This document shows positions 31,318 to 44,238 of a stretch of 64,000 nt of DNA, in pieces (positions within the stretch are counted from its first letter, which is position 1; each line of letters starts with the position of its first letter). The translations under genes and the position numbers were made by a program. The notes beneath the pieces were generated by a model that had not been told where the DNA came from, made no database searches, and saw only the letters and a list, made by a program, of their open reading frames with translations. Source of the stretch: Desulforamulus ruminis DSM 2154 (lineage in GTDB: Bacteria > Bacillota > Desulfotomaculia > Desulfotomaculales > Desulfotomaculaceae); the NCBI RefSeq assembly GCF_000215085.1, contig NC_015589.1:1-64000 (forward strand), in the 5' to 3' direction.

Positions 31318-32025
31318 ATGAGGCTTTTGGCTGCAAATATTTTAATAGTTGATGATGAACAAGCTATTGCCGATTTGGTTGAAGTTTATCTGAAAAATGA
31401 GAACTATAATATCTTTAAATTTTATAACGGGAAGGATGCCCTTAACTGTATTGAAAATGAAAAACTAGACCTCGCCATTTTGGATGTCATGCTCCCCGAT
31501 GTAGACGGTTTTTCAATCTGTCAGCAAATCCGGGAAAAGCGTAATTTTCCGGTTATCATGCTGACTGCCAAAGAAGAAGAAATCGATAAGATTACCGGGC
31601 TGACATTGGGTGCGGACGACTATATCACTAAACCGTTTCGCCCCTTGGAACTTATTGCCCGTGTAAAGGCGCAGCTCCGGAGATTTACCAAATATAATTC
31701 TGCGGAGCCAAACCAGGAAGAACACTTGATTGCCTTTTCCGGTTTGGTATTGGACAAGGATACTCATGAATGCACATTAAACGAAAGATCGCTTGCTCTC
31801 ACTCCTACAGAGTTTTCCATTCTTTGGGTCCTTTGTTCCAATCGCGGACGGGTGGTCAGTTCGGAAGAATTGTTCCATGAGGTATGGGGAGACAAGTATT
31901 TCACCAACAGCAATAATACGGTAATGGTTCATATCAGGCATTTAAGGGAAAAAATGCACGACAGCGCGGAACATCCTAAATATATCAAAACGGTATGGGG
32001 AGTTGGCTATAAAATTGAAAAGTAA
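31318..32025 (+). CDS. vanR: VanR-like response regulator
   Basis: A 235-aa OmpR/PhoB-type regulator. The receiver has acidic residues Asp12-Asp13, phospho-acceptor Asp56 in LDVMLPDVDG and the DDYITKPF lysine; the C-terminal winged helix ends HIRHLREKMHD...TVWGVGYKIEK. It partners the overlapping histidine kinase, which closely resembles VanS. Glycopeptide-type regulation is inferred from that kinase and the downstream D,D-carboxypeptidase. The ATG follows AAAGAAAG, a weak ribosome site. Confidence 0.82.
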   Translation: MRLLAANILIVDDEQAIADLVEVYLKNENYNIFKFYNGKDALNCIENEKLDLAILDVMLPDVDGFSICQQIREKRNFPVIMLTAKEEEIDKITGLTLGADDYITKPFRPLELIARVKAQLRRFTKYNSAEPNQEEHLIAFSGLVLDKDTHECTLNERSLALTPTEFSILWVLCSNRGRVVSSEELFHEVWGDKYFTNSNNTVMVHIRHLREKMHDSAEHPKYIKTVWGVGYKIEK

Positions 32026-33142
32026 GAGAGATAAAAGAAGGAATGATTATACAAAATTAAAAGGGAAAGTATTTTTTCAAATGCTTCTGATTACAATTGC
32101 CGCCGCTGTGACTGTTTATCTATTGCGCTATATCCTGCGTGGGCAGGTCGGAGATCGTATCGTTCGATTTTTAGTCAACGCTTTTCATTTTGAAAATTCG
32201 GACGCACAGAAAATCTATCAGTTAGTGATTCGCAACAATATGGACATGATTCTTTTTGTTGTAATTCTAATATTTTTAGTTATCCTTTTTCGATTTTCTG
32301 TTTCTTGGTTCACAAAATATTTTGATGAAATCAGCGCTGGAATGGATAAACTTACTGAGGAATCCGATGCAGAAATTACATTATCACCGGAATTGGATTT
32401 TATGGAAAATAAGCTTAATCAAATAAAAAACAATCTGGAAAAACAAAAGAAGGCTGCTCTTGATGCGGAGCAGCGCAAAAATGATTTGGTCGTTTACTTG
32501 GCCCATGATATAAAGACACCTCTAACCTCTGTTATAGGATATTTAAGTCTTCTGGATGAAGCTCCTGATATGCCTCCTGAACAGAAGGCAAAGTATGTCG
32601 GTATTACCTTGGAAAAAGCTTATCGATTAGAGGAGCTTATCAATGAGTTTTTTGAGATCACAAGATTTAATCTTCAAACAATTGTTTTGAATAAAGAAAA
32701 AATTAATTTACTGTTCATGCTCCAGCAGATGGCAGATGAATTCTATCCAATGCTGACTCCACAAGGAAAACAGGTGTCCGTCAATGTGCCTGACGGACTC
32801 ACTCTATGGGGAGATGCAGACAAACTGGCCCGTGTGTTCAATAACATTCTGAAAAATGCCATAGCCTATAGCTATGAAAACAGCGGCATTGACATTTCCG
32901 CTCAGCAGCAAGATAAAAATATTGTTATAACTTTTACCAATCAGGGAAATCCAATCCCGCAGGGAAAGCTTAATAGTATTTTTGAAAAATTTTACCGATT
33001 AGATACTGCACGTTCCACAAGCACCGGTGGGGCAGGGCTGGGTTTGGCCATCGCACAAGAAATTGTCACGGCTCACGATGGAACAATCTCTGTGGAAAGC
33101 AACCCGGAAAATACTACATTTACAGTAAAGCTTCCGTTATAA
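32003..33142 (+). CDS. vanS: VanS-like sensor histidine kinase
   Basis: A 379-aa membrane kinase: helices at about 24-45 and 82-99 bracket a short external loop of some 35 residues, followed by a HAMP-like linker. The dimerisation/phosphorylation box has His168 in YLAHDIKTPLTSVIGY, followed by LDEAPDMPPEQKAKYVGITLEKAYRLE, which I recognise from enterococcal VanS, and ATPase boxes NNILKNA and TGGAGLGLAIA. It starts with TTG inside vanR (23-nt overlap); MAIKLKSK matches the VanS amino end, supporting this start. It probably senses a cell-wall signal or glycopeptide. Confidence 0.85.
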   Translation: MAIKLKSKRDKRRNDYTKLKGKVFFQMLLITIAAAVTVYLLRYILRGQVGDRIVRFLVNAFHFENSDAQKIYQLVIRNNMDMILFVVILIFLVILFRFSVSWFTKYFDEISAGMDKLTEESDAEITLSPELDFMENKLNQIKNNLEKQKKAALDAEQRKNDLVVYLAHDIKTPLTSVIGYLSLLDEAPDMPPEQKAKYVGITLEKAYRLEELINEFFEITRFNLQTIVLNKEKINLLFMLQQMADEFYPMLTPQGKQVSVNVPDGLTLWGDADKLARVFNNILKNAIAYSYENSGIDISAQQQDKNIVITFTNQGNPIPQGKLNSIFEKFYRLDTARSTSTGGAGLGLAIAQEIVTAHDGTISVESNPENTTFTVKLPL

Positions 33143-33236: not shown

Positions 33237-34214
33237 ATGGCGCGAAAAGTAAAAAGGAAAAAGTCAAAAACACGGATATTACTGTCATTCCTGCTGATGG
33301 TTGTCATAGCTGTCTTTGCATGTAAATACATCATTACCTCTGTCGCCCAGCATTTATTTGAGAAATACGTTGAGGATAGAACCACGTCGGTACCCTCATT
33401 GGAAATAGGGCATGACTCCGCTGTCGCTATATCGCCAGACAGGCTGAACAGTCCTCACGCGATTCTGATCCGGTTAAAAGATCATACCATCCTGATGCAA
33501 AAAAACAGCGAAGAAAAAATCTACCCTGCTTCTTTGACTAAAATGATGACAACCATTGTTGTAATAGAAAATTTACCTGATCTGAAGGAAGAAATCAAAC
33601 TTAGCAATTCTACGTTTCAGGGGCTGTACCAAGCAGATGCATCAATGGCCGGTTTCCAGCCCGGTGAGCAGGTAAGGGCAATCGATCTGTTATACGGAGC
33701 AATGCTGCCGAGCGGCGCGGAGTGCTGTATTGGACTTGCTGACCAGATTGCTGTATCAGAACAGAATTTTGTAAAATTAATGAATCAAAAGGCGGCAGAT
33801 CTTGGTATGGACAATACTCATTTTGAAAATGCCACCGGACTTCACAATGTAAACCACTACACAACAGTCAAAGATCTGGCTATTCTTCTAAGCTATGCTA
33901 TGCAAAATGATACTTTCAGGGAGATTTTTACTTCATCCCGTCATTCCACACAACCTACGAATAAGCACCCTGGCGGGATAACCTTTTACAATACCATGTT
34001 TGAAGACCTCAACCATCAAAACATCACTGGTGGGGAAATGCTAGGAGGGAAAACCGGATATACCGATGAGGCCGGGCTATGTCTCGCCAGTCTCGCCAAA
34101 GTGGGCAAACAGGAATATATTCTGATTTCAGCCGGTGCAGAGGGAAATCACAAATCCGAACAATACAATATTACCGATGCATTAGCTGTATACAACAGCA
34201 TAAGAAAAGAATAA
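33237..34214 (+). CDS. vanY: D-alanyl-D-alanine carboxypeptidase (serine type, VanY-like)
   Basis: A 325-aa S11-family penicillin-binding D,D-carboxypeptidase with one N-terminal membrane anchor (about 14-36). Active-site motifs are SLTK (Ser99-Lys102), SGA (159-161, in place of the usual SxN) and KTG (272-274). It would remove the terminal D-Ala from pentapeptide outside the membrane. Position after vanRS and a VanR-type operator points to the serine-type VanY of vanD/vanG clusters rather than a housekeeping DacA; the sequence alone would not distinguish them. AATAAGGAG lies upstream of the ATG. No vanH/vanA/vanX follows. Confidence 0.78.
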   Translation: MARKVKRKKSKTRILLSFLLMVVIAVFACKYIITSVAQHLFEKYVEDRTTSVPSLEIGHDSAVAISPDRLNSPHAILIRLKDHTILMQKNSEEKIYPASLTKMMTTIVVIENLPDLKEEIKLSNSTFQGLYQADASMAGFQPGEQVRAIDLLYGAMLPSGAECCIGLADQIAVSEQNFVKLMNQKAADLGMDNTHFENATGLHNVNHYTTVKDLAILLSYAMQNDTFREIFTSSRHSTQPTNKHPGGITFYNTMFEDLNHQNITGGEMLGGKTGYTDEAGLCLASLAKVGKQEYILISAGAEGNHKSEQYNITDALAVYNSIRKE

Positions 34215-34300
34215 ATTGTTCATAAGAATTTATTAAGATTTGATAAGCTAAAATTCCAACACCGCCTAAAGGGGTCTTGGACATGAAAAGAAAAAGAATT
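34180..34300 (+). repeat. vanY-3' / vanW-5' junction, copy 1
   Basis: Contains the vanY end (GTATACAACAGCATAAGAAA), a VanR-type array (ATAAGA 34222, TTAAGA 34233, ATAAGC 34243; the second gap is 10 bp), AATTCCAACACCGCCT, and a vanW-like start ATGAAAAGAAAAAGAATT. Compared with copies 2 and 3 it lacks about 50 nt between CCGCCT and the ribosome site. Confidence 0.8.
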
Positions 34301-34360
34301 AATTTTTACTTAATATGGGTAACGGGAAGTTTCGCTGGTTCTATGTTTGTTTTCTTGTAA
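34283..34360 (+). pseudogene. vanW 5' remnant fused to a foreign hydrophobic tail
   Basis: A 25-codon frame with ribosome site AAAGGGG: MKRKRI matches the start of the vanW remnant at 43822, then switches to NFYLIWVTGSFAGSMFVFL, a hydrophobic tail unlike VanW. It looks like a deletion or insertion join. Translation is possible but a function is doubtful. Confidence 0.5.
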
Positions 34361-34365
34361 GAAGA

Positions 34366-34707
34366 TCAGCGGTTATAAAAACCAAGCCGCGCCTCTTTTT
34401 GAATCTCATATTTCCAATTCAATTCTGCCAGTTTGCTCTGGAGGATTTGCTTTTCGCTATCTGATTTGCATTCTTCCAGCCTTTGTTTAAGGCCTTCAAT
34501 TTCTTTAAGTATAATAATCTCTATTGGGAGTTGTCCTGACGCAGCCATTAACGCGGCCACAAGCCGATTGATCATTCTATCCTCTTTTGTTTCCAATGGA
34601 TTGAGATTTTTTAACTCTATAGGCTTGCCTTCTCCGGGTAAATTTTTGAGTTCGCCCCGCTCGATGGCTTGCTTGATTAGCATCTCAATGGTTAAGGTTA
34701 AACCCAT
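34366..34707 (-). CDS. DnaJ-homologue subfamily C28 conserved-domain (DUF1992) protein
   Basis: A 113-aa protein with the family hallmark ERGELKNLPGEGKPIEL near the N-terminus and a helical, charged C-terminus (KEIEGLKQRLEECKSDSEKQ). The domain is widespread but its role is unknown. The frame is open to GTG 34716; AAAGGCGG is better spaced for ATG 34707. Its 3' end lies 6 nt from the vanW scar, and it is followed upstream by a TetR gene on the same strand. Confidence 0.82.
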   Translation of the reverse strand: MGLTLTIEMLIKQAIERGELKNLPGEGKPIELKNLNPLETKEDRMINRLVAALMAASGQLPIEIIILKEIEGLKQRLEECKSDSEKQILQSKLAELNWKYEIQKEARLGFYNR

Positions 34708-34739
34708 TTCAAACACCGCCTTTATTTGTATAGAGAGAA

Positions 34740-35366
34740 TTAAGTGCTTTTGCTGTAAAAAGATTTTCTGAGTATGTCCAGGTAGGTATCAAAGTCTGCC
34801 AGGTATTGATCGTAAGGGATTTGGGTTAACGGCATTCCTTTGATTTCTTTGTACATTTCTTTTTCATAGCCTTCAACGGCCCAGATAATAAGCCGGTTGG
34901 CCTTTTTAGCATCAATACCTTCTCTAAATCTTGACTCATCAAGATTCTGATACAGTTTGAGCGAGTTTATTGCTAGAAAGTTCTGTTTTCTTTGATCTAA
35001 TTCCGCTTTGACCGCTTCTGAGTCGGTGAAAACTATAACCCAAAAGAAATCGAATACATAGGGGTGCTTATGCATTATTTCCATTTTAAGTAGTGTAATC
35101 TGGCGACATCTTTCTAAAATGTCGCTTTCCAACATATTGGCGACATCTACCACTTCAGTCTTGAGAATCTCCAGGCTATAATCGCATAGGTATAAAAAGA
35201 GCTCCTTTTTAGTATTGATGTAGTGAAACAATAAGCCCTTGGAAACGCCGGATTCCCTGGCAATTGCATTAGTTGAAGCATCATCAAAACCTTTTAATGC
35301 GAATTCCTTTAATGCGGCATTTATGATGGTTTGTTGCCTGCCAGGTTCTAAGTTTAATAACTTCAT
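34740..35366 (-). CDS. TetR/AcrR family transcriptional regulator
   Basis: A 208-aa regulator with an N-terminal TetR DNA-binding domain (about 10-55: IINAALKEFALKGFDDAS, SGVSKGLLFHYINTKKELFLYL) and a variable helical ligand domain. AGAGGAG precedes the ATG. A 54-bp perfect palindrome starting 25 nt upstream is its probable operator, placed to repress this gene and the divergent flavin-type protein at 35584. Confidence 0.9.
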   Translation of the reverse strand: MKLLNLEPGRQQTIINAALKEFALKGFDDASTNAIARESGVSKGLLFHYINTKKELFLYLCDYSLEILKTEVVDVANMLESDILERCRQITLLKMEIMHKHPYVFDFFWVIVFTDSEAVKAELDQRKQNFLAINSLKLYQNLDESRFREGIDAKKANRLIIWAVEGYEKEMYKEIKGMPLTQIPYDQYLADFDTYLDILRKSFYSKST

Positions 35367-35391
35367 AGTTTCTCCTCTTTAGTCTGAATAT

Positions 35392-35445
35392 TATTGACCA
35401 ACCAGGTAAATCAAATTATAATTTGATTTACCTGGTTGGTCAATA
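35392..35445. promoter_or_regulatory. 54-bp perfect palindrome, probable TetR operator
   Basis: Left arm begins ATTGACCAACCAGG, right arm ends CCTGGTTGGTCAAT, with centre AAATTATAATTT and no mismatch over 54 bp (27-bp arms). It lies between the divergent TetR gene and the PPOX gene. As RNA it could also form a hairpin. Confidence 0.75.
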
Positions 35446-35583
35446 TGCCTTGGAACGCTAATCCGAGGTCACCTGATGGCAGATAGCAGTTTTAATGCAG
35501 GAAAAGAGCAACCCCTTGAACTTTAATATTATCTGCGAAAATGCAACTAATAAGAAGTAACGAATATCGGAGGAGGATAAACG

Positions 35584-36000
35584 ATGGCAAATTCTGTATG
35601 GCAGCAAGTACTGGGAATTTTAAACGACTCATCTATTGTAGGATATTTAGCTACAGTTGATGATGGAAAGCCCAGGGTTAGACCATTTGGATTTATGTTT
35701 GAAGAAAATGGGCGGCTATATTTCTGTACTTCAAGTATCAAAGATGTTTATAAACAGATTACGAAGGTTCCTTATATTGAATACTCAAAAACAACTAAGG
35801 AAATGGTGTGGACCAGGGTTAGCGGAGAAATCAAGTTTGACGATGATATTACAAAGAAGGAAAGGCTCTTTGAGCAGATACCTGAATTGAAAATACCCTT
35901 CCAAACACCAGACAATCCTAGTTTTAAGGTTTTTTATCTAGAGCATGGTTCAGCCATCCTGGACGATTTCACCCAAGAACGAAGGACATGTGAGTTTTAG
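35584..36000 (+). CDS. pyridoxamine 5'-phosphate oxidase-family (FMN-binding split barrel) protein
   Basis: A 138-aa single split-barrel domain: VGYLATVDDGKPRVRPFGFMFEENGRLYFCT is the typical flavin-binding opening, and YSKTTKEMVWTRVSGEIKF the dimer strand. These small proteins bind FMN or F420 and reduce or bind diverse substrates; this is unlikely to be PdxH itself. GGAGGA lies before the ATG. It is divergent from the TetR gene across a long operator, so expression is probably inducible. Confidence 0.85.
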   Translation: MANSVWQQVLGILNDSSIVGYLATVDDGKPRVRPFGFMFEENGRLYFCTSSIKDVYKQITKVPYIEYSKTTKEMVWTRVSGEIKFDDDITKKERLFEQIPELKIPFQTPDNPSFKVFYLEHGSAILDDFTQERRTCEF

Positions 36001-36151
36001 ACGGCGCAAGAAATTTACGGTCTGTCATATAGGTTAGAAGATACCCCTCAATAGTCGCTGTATTTCGTTATCTACATCGTGGACAAATTCGTCTTGGCAT
36101 ACGTTATACCTCCAAAGAAATATCCTTCGATTTTCAACTTCCATGTGTATT
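36001..36151. other. gap before scar 2
   Basis: Together with the repeat below, this 300-nt stretch holds no intact gene. Bases 36001-36151 show no recognisable coding or regulatory pattern and may be residue from the insertion that brought the genes between copies 1 and 2. Confidence 0.4.
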
Positions 36152-36395
36152 AGCTGTATACAACAGTATAGGAAAATAATAAGGCCTTCATAAGAATTTA
36201 TTAAGATTTTGATAAGTTAAAATTCCAATTTAGCCTGTCTTAATTCGATAAGATGAAATTGTCGAATCAGACGGGCTTTTATATTCCTGAAAGGGGGTCT
36301 CGGACATGAAAAGAAAAGGAATGATTCAGATGTTTCCATTCTTACTGCCGATCCGCAGGATACAAAGAAAAATATTCTTCGATGCTACGAAGCAC
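36152..36395 (+). repeat. vanY-3' / vanW-5' junction, copy 2
   Basis: Carries the last ten vanY-like codons (LAVYNSIGK then stop), a VanR-type array (ATAAGA 36190, TTAAGA 36201, ATAAGT 36212; 11-bp phase), the dyad TTCGA/TCGAA, and a vanW-like start with AAAGGGGG. It is closely similar to copy 3 over about 230 nt. Confidence 0.82.
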
Positions 36396-36560
36396 TTTGA
36401 TTACACGGAAAAATATACCCCGAAAACCTCCAGAATCCATATGCCTGCCCGCATTGATCCTGATACGGCCGAGCGTATTAAACAGACGGCTTCCGTGGTT
36501 TACCGGGCGCTCGATTGCTCGGGATTTCGATTAAGCCTTTGCTTGGGCCATCACGATTAG
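36306..36560 (+). pseudogene. chimeric remnant: vanW 5' end joined to a D-Ala-D-X ligase fragment
   Basis: The 84-codon frame starts MKRKGMIQMFPFLLPIRR, matching the vanW remnant at 43822 through about residue 24. It then changes to FDYTEKYTPKTSRIHMPARI and TAERIKQTASVVYRALDCSG, which resembles the segment of D-Ala-D-Ala/D-Ser ligases before the catalytic RVDMF motif. Homology stops just there, so the ligase metal site is missing. The two parts are in one frame, probably by deletion between vanW and the ligase gene. The ligase assignment is by recalled motif, not search. Confidence 0.6.
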
Positions 36561-36570
36561 AGTGGTAAAG

Positions 36571-37443
36571 ATGAAAACCGGAAAATTAAAAACGAATAAC
36601 GGCTGCCTGGCCTGGCTTTTCCTCGGGCCCAGCCTGCTGGGTTTTTCTCTTTTTTATTTGCTCCCGTTTGTCACCGGCTTTTATTATTCCCTGGTGGACA
36701 GTCCCCTTAACGGTACTTTTGTCGGATTACATAATTACGGCGTTTTGTTAAAAAACCCGAGCTTTTTATCAGCTCTGGCGAATACAGCCAAGTTTACTTT
36801 AATCTGTGTACCTCTTAATATGATTCTCTCCCTGGGAGTGGCCTTGTTATTGGACCAAAGAATCCAGGGCCGGAACCTGTTTCGCACCATCATGATCACT
36901 CCTTTGGTGGTACCCGTAGCCTCGGTTGTTTTGGTCTGGCAGGCCTTCTTTGATTTAAACGGCGTTTTAAATTCCCTGATCCATGCCCTGGGTTACCCGT
37001 CCGTGGACTGGATGAAAACCAAGTGGTCCAGGATGGTAGTGCTGGTGATTTATCTATGGAAAAACATTGGTTACAGCGTAATCCTGTTTCTGGCCGGATT
37101 ACAAAATATACCGGCTGAATACTACGAAGCGGCCAGGATCGACGGGGCCAGCCGCCGGCAGGAGTTTTTCCGAATAACCCTGGTTTATTTGACCCCCACG
37201 ACTTTTTTTGTTTTTGTTATCTCGATTATCAATTCATTTAAAGTGTTTCGGGAGACGTATCTTATCTCCGGAGAATATCCCCATAACAGCATCTATATGC
37301 TGCAGCACTACATGAACAATATGTTCATGGCTCTGGATTACCAAAAATTGACTTCCGCGGCCTTCATTATGGCTGCCTTTATCGTGGTCGTCGTTTTACT
37401 GCTTTTTATCGTGGAGAGAAAGATCACCAACAGGATTAATTAA
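36571..37443 (+). CDS. carbohydrate-type ABC transporter permease (MalF/UgpA-like)
   Basis: About 290 aa with six predicted helices, the first at about 15-35. The cytoplasmic EAA loop reads EYYEAARIDGASRRQEFF, which docks to a MalK-type ATPase. The start is GTG 36562 or ATG 36571; neither has a strong ribosome site. It is first of six genes reaching 43547 that include a second permease, adaptor, MacB-like protein, ATPase and binding protein. Sugar specificity is unknown, as no catabolic gene is present. Confidence 0.88.
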   Translation: MKTGKLKTNNGCLAWLFLGPSLLGFSLFYLLPFVTGFYYSLVDSPLNGTFVGLHNYGVLLKNPSFLSALANTAKFTLICVPLNMILSLGVALLLDQRIQGRNLFRTIMITPLVVPVASVVLVWQAFFDLNGVLNSLIHALGYPSVDWMKTKWSRMVVLVIYLWKNIGYSVILFLAGLQNIPAEYYEAARIDGASRRQEFFRITLVYLTPTTFFVFVISIINSFKVFRETYLISGEYPHNSIYMLQHYMNNMFMALDYQKLTSAAFIMAAFIVVVVLLLFIVERKITNRIN

Positions 37444-37475
37444 CAAACTTAGAACCGGCGAGAGAGGTGTGTGTG

Positions 37476-38360
37476 TTGAATCGCAACCACCGAATAAAAA
37501 ATATACTCCATATCACAGTTTTACTGGTACTGGCTGTCCTATTCATGTTTCCCCTGGCTGTAACCGTCACCAATTCATTGATGAGTGAACAGGAAATTGC
37601 CGATAATTATGACCCGGTGACGGACAAAAATTTAAGCAGCTATAACGATGACACCGCGAATCACTTCGCCCGGTTCCAGCTTATACCCGACGTGGTGGTG
37701 CTGAAGCAGTATTATAACGTACTCATTAAAAAGACCCAGTTTCTTTTCATGTTCTGGAATTCCGTGCTGATTACCTTCCCTATCGTCATTGGGCAAACGA
37801 TTGTTGCAACCCTGGCGGCCTATGCCTTTGCCAAACTAAAGTTTAGGGGCAGGAATCTTTTGTTTATTTTGTATATCATTGTAATGCTGATGCCATTCCA
37901 GGTAACCCTTGTGCCCAATTATTTAATGGCCGGCCAACTGGGCCTGCTGAATAGCCACTGGTCCATTATCTTTCCCGGCATCTTCAGCACCTTTGGCGTA
38001 TTCCTTTTAAAACAGTATATGGAGCAAATACCGGACTCCTATATTGAAGCAGCCCGGGTGGACGGAGCCAACCAGCTCCAGATTTTCCTCAAAATCATCC
38101 TGCCCATGTCCAGGGCCGGCATAGCAGCCATGACCATCCTTGTTTTTATTGATAATTGGAACATGGTCGAACAGCCGTTGATTTTTTTACAAAATGCGGC
38201 CAAACAGCCTCTTTCTCTCTATCTTTCCAGAATCGTCGACGGTGAAAAAGGATTGGCCTTTGCCGCATCCACTTTGTATATGCTGCCGGTGCTGCTGAAC
38301 TTTCTTTACGCCGAAAAATACTTGCTGGAAGGGATCCGGCTTTCTGGAATCAAAGGCTGA
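37476..38360 (+). CDS. carbohydrate-type ABC transporter permease (MalG/UgpE-like)
   Basis: About 294 aa, partner of the preceding permease. The EAA loop is SYIEAARVDGANQLQIFLKI. After the first helix there is a long polar segment (about 30-75, rich in Asp/Asn), longer than usual for MalG proteins. GAGAGG (37462-37467) suggests GTG 37473 or TTG 37476 rather than the upstream GTG 37467. Likely cotranscribed (about 30-nt gap). Confidence 0.87.
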   Translation: MNRNHRIKNILHITVLLVLAVLFMFPLAVTVTNSLMSEQEIADNYDPVTDKNLSSYNDDTANHFARFQLIPDVVVLKQYYNVLIKKTQFLFMFWNSVLITFPIVIGQTIVATLAAYAFAKLKFRGRNLLFILYIIVMLMPFQVTLVPNYLMAGQLGLLNSHWSIIFPGIFSTFGVFLLKQYMEQIPDSYIEAARVDGANQLQIFLKIILPMSRAGIAAMTILVFIDNWNMVEQPLIFLQNAAKQPLSLYLSRIVDGEKGLAFAASTLYMLPVLLNFLYAEKYLLEGIRLSGIKG

Positions 38361-38417
38361 GCAACCAGGGCGTTGCTTTTTGTGTCGCTGCACCAGGTCA
38401 GAAAGGGAGACAGAAAA

Positions 38418-39584
38418 TTGCAGAATCAAGCAATTGCGGATGATGCGCAAAGAAAAAAAGTGATCGGAAAGCTGAGCCTGCTGTTCCTAATGGCGATGAT
38501 CGGGTTAACTTTCTTCTCCAATACCATCAATAACTTTGCTCTGCCCAGGGTCCAAACGGTCCGGCCGACGAACGGAGCGTTAATCAAAGAAATATTCGGT
38601 GAAGGGACGGTCGAGGTCAAATCAATCCGGGAGGAATACGCAGACGCCAATTTGCGAGTAAAGGAGGTCATGGTGGAGCAGGGGGACAGGGTTAGCAAAG
38701 GCCAGCCCATCATCAGCCTGGACGTGAACGAACTGAAGTCCAATTATCAGGATGAACAGGCCCGCTACCAGCAGTTACAACTATCCCTGGCCGGGGCCCG
38801 GGAAGAGCAGGCGCAAAAACAAAGGGATTACGATAACCTGAAGTACCTGTTTGATCATGAAGCCGAAACGGCGGTAAACCTGCAAAATGCCGAAAAGAAC
38901 CTGGCGGACGCGCAAAGAAACTGTGAGGACATTCAGCTTAATCTGGAAATACAGGCCAGAAAGATGGATACCCTGGCCAAACAGGTGGCAAACAACGGCG
39001 TGTATACAGCGCCTGTGGACGGCATGATCACAGAACTAAATTTTCCCGAAGGATCTATCACCAATAACTCCTTGCCCCTATTTAAATTGGCTGATCTACA
39101 ACAGGGGTTCCGGCTGATCGTGCCAATTGACAATGATTTGGTTGATTACGTCAAACCCGGAGATAGGGTGAGTGTTAATATTCTCTCCCTGGGGGATAAA
39201 AAAACCGAGGGGAAAATTGACAAGATCGTGGAAAACAGCCTGCACAACGGGGATAAGAAGGATTTGTGGATCGACGTGTCTCTGGAAGGCCTGACAGGCG
39301 GCGAAAAGGGAGAAATTTATTTAAGCAAAAAAACAAAGCCTTACGCCATCCTCGTACCGAACAGTGCGGTTTATAACGACAGCAGCGGCTCCTACCCCTT
39401 CGTTCTGGAATCAAGAAAAGGGCCTTTAGGTACGGAGAACTATTTGCAAAAGGTCGAAGTAAATGTGGAAGACAGCGATAATGAAAAGTCGGCTCTCACA
39501 GATAGTGTGATGGGCGAAGTGCTGAGGCAAAGCAATAAACCGGTGGAGGACGGGGATAGAGTTCTGAAGGAGGCGGCAAATTGA
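38418..39584 (+). CDS. HlyD/RND-type membrane fusion (adaptor) protein
   Basis: A 388-aa adaptor: one N-terminal membrane helix (about 18-36), a split lipoyl domain (VMVEQGDRVSKGQPIISLDV and the matching VYTAPVDGMITEL), a coiled-coil hairpin between them (about 95-190) and beta-barrel domains after. It would sit outside the membrane beside the MacB-like permease encoded next. TTG 38418 is chosen because AAAGGGAGA (38402-38410) precedes it by 7 nt. An export-type adaptor inside an importer operon is unusual. Confidence 0.85.
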   Translation: MQNQAIADDAQRKKVIGKLSLLFLMAMIGLTFFSNTINNFALPRVQTVRPTNGALIKEIFGEGTVEVKSIREEYADANLRVKEVMVEQGDRVSKGQPIISLDVNELKSNYQDEQARYQQLQLSLAGAREEQAQKQRDYDNLKYLFDHEAETAVNLQNAEKNLADAQRNCEDIQLNLEIQARKMDTLAKQVANNGVYTAPVDGMITELNFPEGSITNNSLPLFKLADLQQGFRLIVPIDNDLVDYVKPGDRVSVNILSLGDKKTEGKIDKIVENSLHNGDKKDLWIDVSLEGLTGGEKGEIYLSKKTKPYAILVPNSAVYNDSSGSYPFVLESRKGPLGTENYLQKVEVNVEDSDNEKSALTDSVMGEVLRQSNKPVEDGDRVLKEAAN

Positions 39585-41023
39585 AACCGGCCAAATCAGC
39601 CTATCCGGCCTATCTTATGCTGGCCCTGGGTCTATTGGTTTTAACCTGGAGCACCGTCCTGGGGTCATCCCTGCCCGCTAAATTGGCGGATCTTGGCGGC
39701 CTGCACAAAACCAACAAAATTACCGCCACCTGGCTAAGCAACGCCAATCAGCCGGAAGAAGGCTCTTTTTCCCTGAAAGATATGAGGCAGCTTACCCAAT
39801 ACAACCTCCGGGACTACGATCTGGCTTACGCCATGGAGGCTTCAACTTCTGCCGCCTATCAAAAGAACCAGAGTCAAGCTCAGGTGCTGGGGGTGAATGA
39901 CAGGTACGATCAATTCCATCATATAAACCTGCGATCAGGCTGTTTTTTAACTTTCGAACAGGAAAACCAGCAGGTCGCCGTAATTGATGAAGGTCTGGCT
40001 CAGGCTCTTTTTCAAAACTGCAATGTGGTAGGCCGGAAAATAGAACTGTATGGCCGGGAATTTAAAATAACCGGGGTGGCCTGGACTGACCATTCCCTGA
40101 TCGGGACTCTGACGGACAGGGGATACGGCACAGTGTACATACCGGTGAAAATACTGTTGGAACTGAAAGCGGATTCCCGAATAACCTCATTGGAAGTGGA
40201 AACAAGGGATGCCGGCACCACAGGCCTCAACGCCGCCGTTTTAGAAACAGCCCTGGCGTCAATTGGCCAGGACCCCGCCAACTACAAAATCATCGATTAT
40301 AACGTGGCGGGTCTCCTGATGGAACAAGAGAACCTGCTGCGCAATTTCGTGGCGGGGACGGTGACCATGGTGATGGTTTTCAGCTTGCTCAGTCGAAAAA
40401 TAAGGGGTATTTATCATTTCTGCCGCCTGAGACTCCGGGATAAATATTGGTCGGAGATGATCAAGGGGGACGCCGCCAGGCTTGTGCTTAGTATGGCGGA
40501 GGTATTAGCGCTTGTTGCGGTGTTGCTGCTGCTATGGAAATTAATCCGATTTACTTTATATATTCCGCCGGAAAACATCCCCAATGAACTGATTGATGTT
40601 TCATTTTGGGCCGACCTCATTAAAAAGGGGATTCAAACCAGGATGCAAAGCGCCGGATATGCAGCGCCGCCCGGAGAAATTCAGTTGAATATCCTTAATA
40701 CCATTCAGAACTGGAACTTGTTTTTAAACCTCTTTCTGGGTTGGCCGCTGTTCTTGCTAGGGCTTTACCAGATCAAGCTGTTGCAGGAAAAACTGTTCAA
40801 AGTTGAAGTTTTCTGTGTCGTTTTCATGCTGACCGCCTTAAGTCTGGGCACCGCCTTGCTGTGGATCATAAAAATGCCTCCGGTCATAGAGACCGGGGAG
40901 GTGTTGCTGGTATTCAGCTCTGTATTTTTAACTGTGGTTACCAAAATAAATAAGGGGACAGGAATGTCCCCAACGAATAGGAGGGCGGCGGATGGCGAGT
41001 TTATATCTGAAAAATCTAGCTAA
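39581..41023 (+). CDS. MacB/FtsX-like ABC permease without its own ATPase
   Basis: 480 aa: a first helix (about 10-29), a large extracellular core (about 35-250) with the MacB-like pattern VVGRKIELYGREFKITGVAW, then about five C-terminal helices (near 255-272, 300-322, 378-396, 405-430, 436-456). MacB/FtsX proteins transmit force across the membrane rather than forming a pore. The TTG start overlaps the adaptor's stop (ATTGA). No MacB-type ATPase is adjacent; the only ATPase is the MalK-like one downstream. Family call moderate. Confidence 0.75.
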   Translation: MKPAKSAYPAYLMLALGLLVLTWSTVLGSSLPAKLADLGGLHKTNKITATWLSNANQPEEGSFSLKDMRQLTQYNLRDYDLAYAMEASTSAAYQKNQSQAQVLGVNDRYDQFHHINLRSGCFLTFEQENQQVAVIDEGLAQALFQNCNVVGRKIELYGREFKITGVAWTDHSLIGTLTDRGYGTVYIPVKILLELKADSRITSLEVETRDAGTTGLNAAVLETALASIGQDPANYKIIDYNVAGLLMEQENLLRNFVAGTVTMVMVFSLLSRKIRGIYHFCRLRLRDKYWSEMIKGDAARLVLSMAEVLALVAVLLLLWKLIRFTLYIPPENIPNELIDVSFWADLIKKGIQTRMQSAGYAAPPGEIQLNILNTIQNWNLFLNLFLGWPLFLLGLYQIKLLQEKLFKVEVFCVVFMLTALSLGTALLWIIKMPPVIETGEVLLVFSSVFLTVVTKINKGTGMSPTNRRAADGEFISEKSS

Positions 41024-42107
41024 GACCTACCCCGGCGGAGTTACGGCAGTCAGGGATTTCTCTCTGGAAATAAAGGATCAAGAATTCTTAATCCTGGTAG
41101 GTCCCTCCGGCTGTGGCAAAACAACCGTTTTAAGGATGATTGCCGGGCTGGAGGAAATTTCAGCCGGTGAATTATATATTGACGACCGGCCGGTTAATGA
41201 CGTGGCTGCCAAGGACCGGAATATCGCCATGGTTTTTCAAAATTATGCTCTTTATCCCCATCTATCGGTCTATGACAATATGGCTTTTGGACTTACGTTG
41301 AGAAAGATGCCCAAGGCTGAAATCAGGAAAAATGTGCAGGAAGCGGCCAGAATTCTGGCCCTTGAAGATCTTCTAGAACGCAAACCCAAGGAACTTTCCG
41401 GCGGGCAAAGGCAAAGGGTGGCCCTGGGACGGGCCATTGTCAGGAAACCCGAGGTTTTCCTGATGGATGAGCCTCTGTCCAACCTGGATGCGCAGTTGAG
41501 AACCCAGATGAGAATAGAAATTGCCAAGCTCCATAAAAATCTGCAAACAACCTTTGTTTATGTAACCCATGATCAAACCGAAGCCATGACCATGGGCACC
41601 AGAATCGTGGTGATGAAGGACGGCCTGATCCAGCAAATTGACAGCCCGCAATCCATCTATGACCACCCGGTCAATATGTTTGTGGCCGGTTTTCTCGGCA
41701 GCCCCGGGATGAACTTTCTGGAAGTTTTAATGATCGAGCAAAAGGGCTGTATTTTTGCCAAACTGGCCGACGCCCTGCTGCTTGTTCCTGCTGCCGGGGG
41801 ACAAACGTTAAAAGAGCAGGGGTATCTGGACCGGAAAGTGGTTCTGGGGATCAGAGCGGAGCATCTCTGCGGCAGCGGAGATTTTTTGGACCGCCATCCC
41901 GAGTGTGCTTTGCGCGGGAGGCTGGAGTTTAGCGAATTGAGAGGGGCTGAAACTTACCATTATGTAAGGATAGACGGCAGGGAGGTGGTTGTCAGGGTGA
42001 GTCCGGAGCTGCGCGCCGAAACCGGACAGGAAGTCAGGGTGGGTTTTAATATGTCTAAGGCCCATTTTTTCGATCAAGAAAGTGGGGTGAACATCATTAG
42101 ACAGTAG
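40992..42107 (+). CDS. MalK/UgpC-like ABC transporter ATP-binding protein
   Basis: A 371-aa ATPase with Walker A GPSGCGKTT (about 37-45), signature LSGGQRQRVALGRAIVRKP, Walker B VFLMDEPLSNLD, switch VTHDQTEAMTMG, and a C-terminal TOBE regulatory domain (about 240-371). It should energise the MalF/MalG-type pair and possibly the MacB-like protein. It overlaps the permease gene by 32 nt. GGAGGG lies 6 nt or so before the ATG. Confidence 0.93.
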   Translation: MASLYLKNLAKTYPGGVTAVRDFSLEIKDQEFLILVGPSGCGKTTVLRMIAGLEEISAGELYIDDRPVNDVAAKDRNIAMVFQNYALYPHLSVYDNMAFGLTLRKMPKAEIRKNVQEAARILALEDLLERKPKELSGGQRQRVALGRAIVRKPEVFLMDEPLSNLDAQLRTQMRIEIAKLHKNLQTTFVYVTHDQTEAMTMGTRIVVMKDGLIQQIDSPQSIYDHPVNMFVAGFLGSPGMNFLEVLMIEQKGCIFAKLADALLLVPAAGGQTLKEQGYLDRKVVLGIRAEHLCGSGDFLDRHPECALRGRLEFSELRGAETYHYVRIDGREVVVRVSPELRAETGQEVRVGFNMSKAHFFDQESGVNIIRQ

Positions 42108-42170
42108 TCAAGTCAGAATATCTTTTTGGGTTTAAATTCCTACTGAATACTTAAAGAAAAGGGTGTTTTG

Positions 42171-43547
42171 ATGATCAAAAACAAATGCGGAGTTGTCTTA
42201 AGCCTGGTTCTGGTCCTCGGCATGGTATTTACCGCCGGCTGCGGCAATACTCGGGCTGCCGGGGAAGATAATAATCCTGATTCCCTGACCATTGCGGTGG
42301 TGATCAAAGATATGTACCTGGATACGGCAGTAAAAAAGTTTGAGGAACTTCATCCCGGCGTTCGTGTGGAAGTGAAAGAATACACCTCCAGTACTTCGGA
42401 AAAAGGTGAAGGTGTTAGGGCGGCAGATCCCGGCGATATTGAAAAATATGTCACGGCTATGAATACCCAGCTCATGTCCGGTCAGGGCAGCGATATCATT
42501 TTATTAAACAACCTGCCTTATCAGACCTATGCGGATAAGAATCTTTTAGTTGACTTGGGCGGGCTGATGCAGTCGGATCAAAGCTTTGACAGCAACAAAT
42601 ACTACCAAAATATTTTCGAGGCTTTAGAATATAAAGATAAACTCTATGGGCTGCCGGTTAATATCGGTATTGATATGATTGCCGCCGATAGAACCTTACT
42701 GGCTGATTCCCAGGCGCTAATCGACGATAGCATCTGGGATTGGAACGATTTTGTCAAGACGGCGGAAAAGGTCATGAACGACAAGCAAAACGGGGGAACC
42801 CAGGAGATGTATGCCTTGGCCGGGATGGATGAAAAAAGACTGATTGCGACTCTGGTTAAAGAGAACTATGACAAACTGGTCGATCCGGAGAAGAAGACGG
42901 CCAATTTTACCGGCCAAGAATTTCTTGATTTACTGAACCTGAGTAAATATCTGATTGACCACAAACTGGTTAATACGGATACAGCTCAGACCAACATTAT
43001 GGACATGGCCGCCCGGGGTAAACTTGTTTTTAATTTCACTTCTCTTAGAGGGTTTTGGGACCTGCAAGTGGCCAAGGCGATTTTCAGCGAGGGTGTTCAG
43101 CTCTTAAAGCCCCCCGGAAACGTGTTCTTTTCCACGGACTCCATGTATGGGATCAGCAGTAAATCAGCCAATCAAGAGCTGGCCTGGGAATTTTTAAAAT
43201 TTTTGGTCTCTGATGATATGATGACTCAGGGAGGAATGCCGATTAATAAGAGTGTGCTTCCCCAGATTGCCCGGAATTTCACCCAGGCTATACAAAAAAA
43301 TGGTGGGGTAATGAGAATTAAGGACGACGGCATTCCAGCTCAATCGATAACACTGCAGCCCCCCACCCAGGAGGATGTCGAGTATATGGAAAACCTGCTG
43401 AGTCAAGCGAAGGTCTACATCGGAACGGACCAGAAGATTATTTCCATTGTTCAGGAGGAAACCGCGGCCTTTCTTACAGGACAGAAGACAGCGGAGGCGA
43501 CTGCCCAATTGATTCAGGACAGGGTGAGCACTTACTTAAATGAATAA
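42171..43547 (+). CDS. extracellular solute-binding lipoprotein (ABC importer)
   Basis: A 458-aa binding protein with a lipoprotein signal: basic start, hydrophobic LSLVLVLGMVFTAGC, lipid cysteine at about residue 24. The mature part follows the family-1 sugar-binding plan (KKFEELHPGVRVEVKEYTSS; YGLPVNIGIDMIAADRTLL; WEFLKFLVSDDMM near the C-terminus). ATG 42171 is preferred over TTG 42168. It closes the six-gene operon. The ligand is unknown. Confidence 0.9.
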   Translation: MIKNKCGVVLSLVLVLGMVFTAGCGNTRAAGEDNNPDSLTIAVVIKDMYLDTAVKKFEELHPGVRVEVKEYTSSTSEKGEGVRAADPGDIEKYVTAMNTQLMSGQGSDIILLNNLPYQTYADKNLLVDLGGLMQSDQSFDSNKYYQNIFEALEYKDKLYGLPVNIGIDMIAADRTLLADSQALIDDSIWDWNDFVKTAEKVMNDKQNGGTQEMYALAGMDEKRLIATLVKENYDKLVDPEKKTANFTGQEFLDLLNLSKYLIDHKLVNTDTAQTNIMDMAARGKLVFNFTSLRGFWDLQVAKAIFSEGVQLLKPPGNVFFSTDSMYGISSKSANQELAWEFLKFLVSDDMMTQGGMPINKSVLPQIARNFTQAIQKNGGVMRIKDDGIPAQSITLQPPTQEDVEYMENLLSQAKVYIGTDQKIISIVQEETAAFLTGQKTAEATAQLIQDRVSTYLNE

Positions 43548-43661
43548 TCGCAAAAGTTTTTAAGAGTACCGAGCCTAGATTGGGGAAGTCAGCCAGCCTG
43601 GATATGGCCATATTTATTCTTTAGATTTTAGATAGAATTTGCTTTTTAATACAGTGTTACT

Positions 43662-43905
43662 GATGCATTGGCAGTATACAACAGCTTAGGAAAAGAATAA
43701 GTTCTTCATAAGAATTTATTAAGATTTTGATAAGTTGAATTCCAACACCGCCTGCCTGATTTCGATAAGATGAAATTGTCGAATCGGACGGGCTTTAACA
43801 TTCCGGAAAGGAGGCATGGACATGAAAAGGAAAAGAATTACTCAATTGTTTCCATTCTTACTGCCGATCCGCAGGGTACAAAGAAAAATAATCTTCTATA
43901 CCAAG
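43662..43905 (+). repeat. vanY-3' / vanW-5' junction, copy 3
   Basis: Contains DALAVYNSLGKE and stop (vanY-like end), a VanR-type array (ATAAGA 43708, TTAAGA 43719, ATAAGT 43730; 11-bp phase), CCAACACCGCCT, the TTCGAT dyad and a vanW start after AAAGGAGG. With copy 2 it brackets the ABC operon as a direct repeat of about 240 nt. Confidence 0.82.
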
Positions 43906-44123
43906 ATGCACATGGACCGGAATCGCTATGCAAAAACAAAGGGTACAGAGCTTTTTGCCTTTTTGTATATATGAAACCAAATCGAAGCTTCTAAATGACA
44001 ACACGGGCTTTGATATAAAATATCAGGAAAACAAGGTATTTATTCTCGTGAACTACCCTGTACGGCATTACGAGTTTTGCTGTATTTGCCGGTCAACAGT
44101 GGCAGTCGAATCCTGCGGAACCT
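43822..44123 (+). pseudogene. vanW: vanW remnant (frameshifted, truncated)
   Basis: The ATG at 43822, after AAAGGAGG, opens MKRKRITQLFPFLLPIRRVQ, with the VanW-family look, and stops at 43972. A second frame continues the similarity as YETKSKLLNDNTGFDIKYQE and NKVF, after which it is lost near 44050. So there is one frameshift near 43965 and a 3' truncation. VanW is an accessory protein of vanB/vanG clusters with unclear function. Identification rests on recalled family motifs. Confidence 0.65.
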
Positions 44124-44238
44124 GAACAGAAGTGTCTAATTTGCTTTCAGTTCTTGTTTGTTAGTACAATATTAATTGAACTTCGAATGATTTATATAAT
44201 CCAACAGAGCAATAAATGAAAAATTGAGGTGAAATACT

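Follow-up and report, generated by a model that had tools for sequence, protein, structure and literature searches.

An open reading frame of 84 codons (ATG start, TAG stop) on the forward strand of the Desulforamulus ruminis DSM 2154 genome fuses the beginning of a vanW gene in frame with an internal segment of a vanG ligase gene. We consider it very likely that this fusion ORF is the scar of a microhomology deletion which, during the decay of the ligase operon, was retained as leader of a transporter operon that VanR probably controls. It lies within what is called here the window, i.e. the whole stretch of 64,000 nt that was analysed (positions 1 to 64,000 of NC_015589.1, the genome being 3,969,014 bp in one contig). 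Coordinates of all features are collected in Table 1. The scar itself is ordinary gene decay; it would mark the place where one operator came to stand over both a vancomycin-resistance and a transporter operon.

Table 1. Position of the fusion ORF and of the surrounding features in the window.
Feature	Position	Strand	Remarks
vanR response regulator, intact	31318..32025	+	NF033117 VanR-ABDEGLN, 426.7 bits (cut-off 350)
vanS histidine kinase, intact	32003..33142	+	NF033091 VanS, 409.5 bits (cut-off 400)
S11 (DacA) type D-Ala-D-Ala carboxypeptidase, vanY position	33237..34214	+	PF00768, 164.2 bits
vanY-tail/operator block, copy 1	34162..34360	+	repeats D1 and D5; vanW start ATG 34283, runs out after 25 codons
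Duplicated vanY tail, carried with second operator copy	36146..36180	+	repeat D1; alignment
VanR-type operator array (predicted)	36187..36221	+	three direct repeats, 11-nt period; VanRG consensus from PMC4405338 (accessible text)
Hairpin then TTTT, attenuator-like	36232..36277	+	-27.1 kcal/mol, z -4.65 for 36228-36300
Shine-Dalgarno AAAGGGGG	36290..36297	+	8 nt before fusion ATG
Fusion ORF	36306..36560	+	vanW part, codons 1-32; VanG part, to codon 74; then 10 codons of neither gene and TAG
Putative deletion joint in CTTTGAT	36395..36401	+	7 nt common to vanW and vanG parents
ABC permease 1	36562..37443	+	GTG 36562, conserved ATG 36571; PF00528, 69.8 bits; start region conserved
ABC permease 2	37467..38360	+	conserved neighbour in relatives
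HlyD-type membrane fusion protein	38373..39584	+	PF16576, 54.3 bits
MacB/FtsX-like permease	39581..41023	+	PF12704, 60.3 bits
UgpC-like ABC ATPase	40992..42107	+	ORF, conserved neighbour; name from reading the sequence
Extracellular solute-binding protein	42168..43547	+	PF13416, 79.3 bits
Block copy 3 and vanW remnant (starts 43822), shifted, truncated	43648..44125	+	vanW-gen, 65.3 and 45.6 bits, two frames

Both halves of the ORF were compared with family models. The vanW half aligned with NF033128 (vanW-gen) from profile position 1, at 35.7 bits (E 7e-9), the full-length cut-off being 365 bits, and the match is to the N-terminal part only. Residues 28-74 matched PF07478 at profile positions 108-154 of 204 (33.5 bits, E 3.8e-8, above the curated cut-off of 24 bits), and the second half is ligase-like. 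The same residues matched the NCBIfam VanG model NF000091 at positions 245-291 of 344 (63.1 bits, E 2e-17), which is the best ligase model for this piece, the next one reaching 35.8 bits. Because these 63.1 bits, far below the full-length cut-off of 495, extend over just 47 of the 344 positions, the VanG-derived part is a fragment and not a ligase. The three scores, set against their cut-offs, thus indicate that neither half is a chance resemblance and that neither is a whole protein. A preliminary description of this DNA had proposed an in-frame fusion of a vanW start to a segment resembling D-Ala-D-X ligases. The fusion is borne out by these matches, and the ligase likeness stands and can be refined to the VanG type (D-Ala-D-Ser). 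We agree that the segment ends just before the metal-binding part, which, from general ligase anatomy, we take to begin just past its end.

Relatives of the locus were then compared. Permease 1 matched at E ≤1e-50 in 12 of 113 genomes of the class, 10 of the 12, window included, being 92-100% identical. A contig scan with the same protein, in which the best 80 of 317 relatives were kept, gave nine that were more than 80% identical, five of these being the contigs of G075, G103, G069, G005 and G002. The leader between operator and permease 1 was compared in 14 loci, namely the window, G072, G075, G069, G005 (a genome of the same genus), G002, G103, G104, G032 and G043, together with Candidatus Formimonas warabiya DCMF (L092), Gracilibacter (L095), a Dethiobacter MAG (L097) and Sedimentibacter (L098). 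G007, whose ABC genes are broken and which has another two-component pair, was counted for the operator and left outside the leader comparison. An operator precedes permease 1 in 13 of these 15 ABC loci (0-3 mismatches to a 32-mer), and none was found there at up to 6 mismatches in G007 and Sedimentibacter.

Nine sequence states were found between operator and permease 1 among the 13 operator-bearing loci, G103 and G104, with nearly the same flank, counting as one. Besides the fusion of the window, Formimonas has an in-frame vanW::vanG fusion of its own, 107 codons from the vanW ATG, in which vanW reaches to about codon 67 and the joint is different. Gracilibacter has a full-length vanW of 280 codons ending at the same stop. 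G072, G069, G002 and G032 keep the vanW start codon only, with a short leader ORF, G075 has a vanG piece without ribosome site, G043 a shorter vanG piece, and three further truncations are found in G005, in G103 with G104, and in the Dethiobacter MAG. The deletion scar is supported by this persistence of the operator ahead of so many states, and by the occurrence in Formimonas of a different fusion at the same spot.

The joints themselves could be read by comparison with the parent sequences. In the joint region the window reads GCACTTTGATTACACGG, and the intact vanW of Gracilibacter GTACTTTGATCGG. The vanW parent in Gracilibacter reads TACTTTGATCGG, and the vanG parent in G072, G075 and G069 TTCTTTGATTACACGG. 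CTTTGAT is common to both parents, as would be expected of a microhomology deletion. Because the joint lies at this motif, vanW supplies about 32 codons (to KHFD, by comparison with vanG and with the vanW copies of relatives), and not the 24 or so proposed at first. The vanG sequence then continues to GGATTT. From 36528 the window departs from vanG, where G072 continues GGATTTGCAAGGG, and the last 10 codons (36528-36557) come from neither vanW nor vanG. From about 36539 the window is identical to the permease 1 leader of relatives without the vanG piece, and all but about 11 nt of these codons, which could be assigned to no source, is that leader read out of frame. The vanG/leader joint is common to 4 of the 14 loci (window, G075, which is Desulfocucumis palustris, G043 and Formimonas), and the vanW/vanG joint of the window was found in this genome only. 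Comparison with the parents shows this second joint, which a deletion presumably produced; that both halves match family models and that their parents exist in relatives supports such an origin. The repeated operator blocks could have confused the assembly, but an artefact of assembly or sequencing is extremely improbable, the genome being in one contig and published as complete (as that of D. ruminis DL, in the accessible text of PMC3569383), and the vanG/leader joint recurring in three other genomes, even if the vanW/vanG joint does not. In a Pelotomaculum bin, vanG (L085 8424-9368, matching part of L086) ends abruptly at DEIELSHG, no more than a few codons from the start of the window's vanG piece, and likewise in G104; this is possibly a coincidence.

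The following order of events may be proposed. The six-gene ABC module would have been brought together with an operon of the vanG type (vanR-vanS-vanY, then operator, vanW, vanG and further genes), so that the operator and permease 1 came to flank vanW and a portion of vanG. A later deletion at the 7-nt repeat would have joined vanW codon 32 to inner vanG in frame, and the older joint between vanG and the permease leader, the one common to the three other genomes, contributes the last ten codons and the stop. Operator, hairpin and ribosome site remain and, from their position, would now serve the ABC operon. Any peptide would be incidental, and at most its translation would help ribosomes to reach permease 1.

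In the surroundings of the fusion ORF, the vanY tail, the operator and a vanW start together form a block that is present in three copies, at 34162, 36130 and 43648, and vanW is broken in all three, as it runs out after 25 codons, is fused, or is shifted and truncated. All frames are open in the six-gene ABC operon. The stretch between the first two operator copies, 34366-36000, appears to be an insertion and contains a PNPOx-like gene, a presumably DUF1992-like gene and a TetR regulator, accompanied at 35392-35445 by a 27-bp inverted repeat that is perfect.

Of a vanG-type resistance operon, the locus has VanR and VanS of the van groups, both scoring above their NCBIfam cut-offs; a complete set of ligase, VanXY and VanT was not found. 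The gene at the vanY position reaches only 78.2 of the 625 bits of the VanY-D model. Six matches to PF07478 were found genome-wide, and a single one, 36387-36527, falls in the window, in keeping with the statement that the fusion ORF holds the only trace of a ligase there. Elsewhere, the sole full-length match is a 332-aa frame (202.8 bits), and the four others score 29-51 bits in frames of 452-1095 aa. The search for VanT gave only a 372-aa frame, 34% identical over its C-terminal half, and VanXY had no match in the genome at E 1e-3, in a search run without positive control. The deletion scar is supported by this poverty of the genome, with its one other full-length PF07478 frame, a partial VanT match and no VanXY match. 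A VanW-family frame of 281 codons was seen elsewhere in the genome (3354920-3355321, L033), near a frame that reads as response-regulator-like.

The direct repeats of the operator array start at 36188, 36199 and 36210, and match the VanRG 12-mer at 10, 8 and 7 of 12 positions, respectively. Taken alone, the first repeat is not significant, as one strand of the window has 38 sites that agree with the 12-mer at 10 of 12 positions. The 30-nt array has two occurrences in the genome at ≤3 mismatches, 36187 and 43705; the array of the first block copy has lost one base and is outside this count. Retention of an operator array, predicted by sequence only, is upheld as proposed in the preliminary description, and so is the strong ribosome site, at 36290-36297. 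A scan for consensus promoters gave a single match, on the minus strand, versus 1.6 expected.

Between the operator and the vanW ribosome site lies a hairpin, with an ATG in its loop, which folds far better than shuffled sequences; a similar stretch is found near 43749-43794. It was seen in the 14 operator copies, out of 21, that were aligned, these having been picked for keeping both arms or nearly so. Only one pair has changed on both sides, a result reached by 467 of 500 shuffles; other measures came out better, the covariation score being reached by 8 of 500 and 84.7% of cells being paired, versus at most 44.0% when the structure is slid. The 3′ arm is absent in three copies (window copy 1, the upstream Formimonas copy, and the Gracilibacter copy before vanW), and there the vanW ribosome site comes directly after. 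From its folding, the hairpin could act as an attenuator.

The position of the stop codon raises the question of translation. GTG 36562 follows the stop after 1 nt and ATG 36571 after 10 nt, distances suited to re-initiation. Ribosomes loaded at the vanW site might then finish at the permease start and re-initiate, permease 1 translation being coupled to that of the fusion ORF. Among the 13 loci with the operator, 7 (window, Formimonas, Gracilibacter, G072, G002, G032, and G069, where the ribosome site is weaker) have an ORF that starts from a vanW-type ATG and stops no more than 15 nt from the GTG of the permease. A leader of this kind with a ribosome site is nevertheless lacking in the 6 others (G075, G043, G005, G103, G104 and the Dethiobacter MAG), and there is therefore no general need for one; in addition, another permease start is possible in G072, G069, G002 and G032, since their permease frame is open back to an ATG 78 nt upstream. 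We regard such coupling as rather unlikely. Some selection for an open leader is nevertheless hinted at by the occurrence of two in-frame fusions (by chance, about 1 in 9) and of a Gracilibacter vanW ending at the same stop, which argues against a pure scar.

Selection was then estimated from substitutions. Compared with the window, dN/dS was 0.06-0.45 for vanR, vanS, vanY and the six ABC genes, computed on the best tblastn stretch alone, over 11 loci as far as they have the gene. These genes are under purifying selection. In the vanG part of the window's fusion (29 shared codons), the ratio of nonsynonymous to synonymous changes was 5:1 against Formimonas and 6:1 against G075. In the vanW part (32 codons) it was 12:2 against Formimonas, 12.5:2.5 against Gracilibacter, 12:4 against window copy 3 and 11:5 against the second Formimonas copy, and in the tail 2 or 3 to 0. 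Comparisons in which the window's fusion takes no part were mixed in outcome, with small substitution counts, a point against the deletion scar: for the vanW part of the Formimonas fusion, 2:3 against window copy 3 (dN/dS about 0.15), 9:4 against Gracilibacter and 8:4 against the second Formimonas copy; for its vanG part, 7:1 against G075. Small as they are, the counts for the window ORF show a lack of protein constraint and not positive selection. That ABC and vanRSY genes are under purifying selection, and that the window's fusion, over few sites, gives no sign of it, again supports the deletion scar.

It had also been suggested that a chimeric peptide may still be expressed. A functional peptide, for instance one acting on VanS or on D-Ala ligases as a decoy or regulator, is favoured by the strong ribosome site, the operator and the open frame. 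Yet the window's fusion has no synonymous excess, the sequence of relatives at this place is quite different, the two known fusions differ in content, and the ligase piece is too small a part of VanG to be more than the fragment described above; we hold this reading to be most unlikely.

Concerning the original gene order, which the fusion had been thought to give, the evidence from relatives is twofold. In G072, a 71-codon C-terminal piece of vanW, recognised by comparison with Gracilibacter vanW, directly precedes vanG, followed by vanXY and a vanT-like frame, and on this account vanW before vanG is likely the original order. This run comes after the ABC operon, from which a transposase-like ORF separates it (this ORF and the vanT-like frame were named by reading). 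The longer vanG copies of G072, G075, G069, G103 and G104 are likewise all downstream of the ABC operon, the match being split over two frames in G069 and ending at residue 294 of 371 in G103 and G104. G075 has both a vanG piece upstream and, downstream, a vanG match of nearly full length. At this locus, nothing more than ligase fragments was found in the window, G005, G032, G043 and the Dethiobacter MAG; G043 has a vanG locus elsewhere in its genome, and the G002 contig ends too early to judge. The vanW-vanG order thus stands, whereas the place of the fragment, upstream of the ABC operon, differs from that of the longer vanG copies, and a duplication, a rearrangement or a joining of two operons is therefore needed.

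The history of the vanG/leader joint is not simple either. On a tree of four ABC genes (11 rows), the four loci sharing it stand apart and require at least 4 changes; constraining them to one clade was rejected (p 2.4e-8). The vanRSY tree (12 rows) requires 3 changes and differs in shape from the ABC tree. This scatter of the shared joint over the ABC tree counts against a straightforward succession of events in the scar reading; the pattern would fit an ancient common state that was lost several times, and equally an exchange of leaders.

Further fusions were sought with the 84-aa protein in 398 genomes of the phylum (E 1e-8). Matches were obtained in 21 genomes, including that of the window, and the other 20 match from residue 23 or later, in the ligase part, the window alone spanning residues 1-84; such a sample can miss fusions, because the Formimonas locus did not come up. 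Permease 1 had no match at E 1e-40 in 72,556 plasmid records, and a plasmid origin was discarded; so was a viral one, none of 6 pattern matches among viral contigs being a relative. A literature search, whose coverage left out most subscription papers, found, among the papers listed, no report of the D. ruminis van locus, no paper combining vancomycin resistance, Desulfotomaculum and vanW, and none combining vanR, vanS, sugar ABC transporter and Paenibacillus. Among the matches listed for vanG and Desulfotomaculum, none was on van genes by title.

More interesting than the fusion itself is a VanRS-linked ABC operon that outlived the ligase genes. More distant loci were surveyed in 71 relatives (L099-L169; permease 54-68% identical), which are the best-scoring part of the 317 and not a random sample. 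In 19 of them, VanR-like (≥43% identity, >150 bits) and VanS-like (>100 bits) frames lie beside the ABC module, on the same strand within 7 kb, the VanR scores (214-252 bits) being apart from those of other response regulators (up to 174). Seventeen of the 19 are Paenibacillus, one is Cohnella and one Ruminiclostridium. A VanXY-like peptidase occurs in 8 of the 71, 7 of which also have the VanRS-like pair, and no VanG-like ligase above 60 bits was found in the DNA examined of the 71. The locus checked in detail, L131 (Paenibacillus nasutitermitis), stays below the cut-offs, with 406 of 460 bits for VanR-F/M, 374 of 400 for VanS and 407 of 425 for VanY-A/F/M. Because 19 of 71 distant loci pair VanRS-like frames with the module and none of the 71 shows a VanG-like ligase at that score, the partnership may be older than the ligase and independent of it. 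VanR control of the module is suggested by the position of the operator. As a tentative proposal, in which our confidence is limited, a VanRS-type pair, sometimes with a D-Ala-D-Ala carboxypeptidase, may have been turned, in these anaerobes and in many related Paenibacillus loci, to the control of an importer-like ABC module that includes HlyD and MacB-like components, giving a glycopeptide or cell-wall response without altered ligase, and the fusion would be the seam of the removal of the ligase operon. Should VanRS in fact govern the ABC module, an antibiotic sensor that is well studied in Gram-positive bacteria would have a target of a second kind, and responses to glycopeptides that involve no ligase genes could be tested in harmless anaerobes and soil bacteria.

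Among known systems, the vanG operon of Enterococcus faecalis BM4518 has its resistance genes preceded by a promoter that carries three direct repeats, according to the accessible text of PMC4405338. The D. ruminis locus resembles it, as described there, in its VanG ligase piece, its van-group VanR and VanS and its three-repeat promoter. It differs in having only fragments of vanG and vanW, with no vanXY and no complete vanT found, an 11-nt repeat period, an S11 peptidase at the vanY position, and a six-gene ABC operon after the van genes. The vanI cluster of Desulfitobacterium hafniense is likewise a van cluster in an anaerobic firmicute, of the D-Ala-D-Lac type by the title of PMC4229326; a term search of the text available from that source gave no mention of vanW, ABC or transporter. 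A further parallel is the Formimonas locus, recorded in the accessible text of PMC9689679 as vanW with a six-gene insertion, the term vanG being absent from the main text. It shares with D. ruminis the vanRSY genes, the operator and the ABC operon, and ahead of permease 1 it likewise has vanW fused in frame to vanG. Formimonas then continues, downstream of the ABC operon, with an operator, an intact vanW (459.6 bits), a vanH-like dehydrogenase gene, a ligase of the VanI type (732.1 bits, the cut-off being 700) and, in the vanX position, a peptidase.
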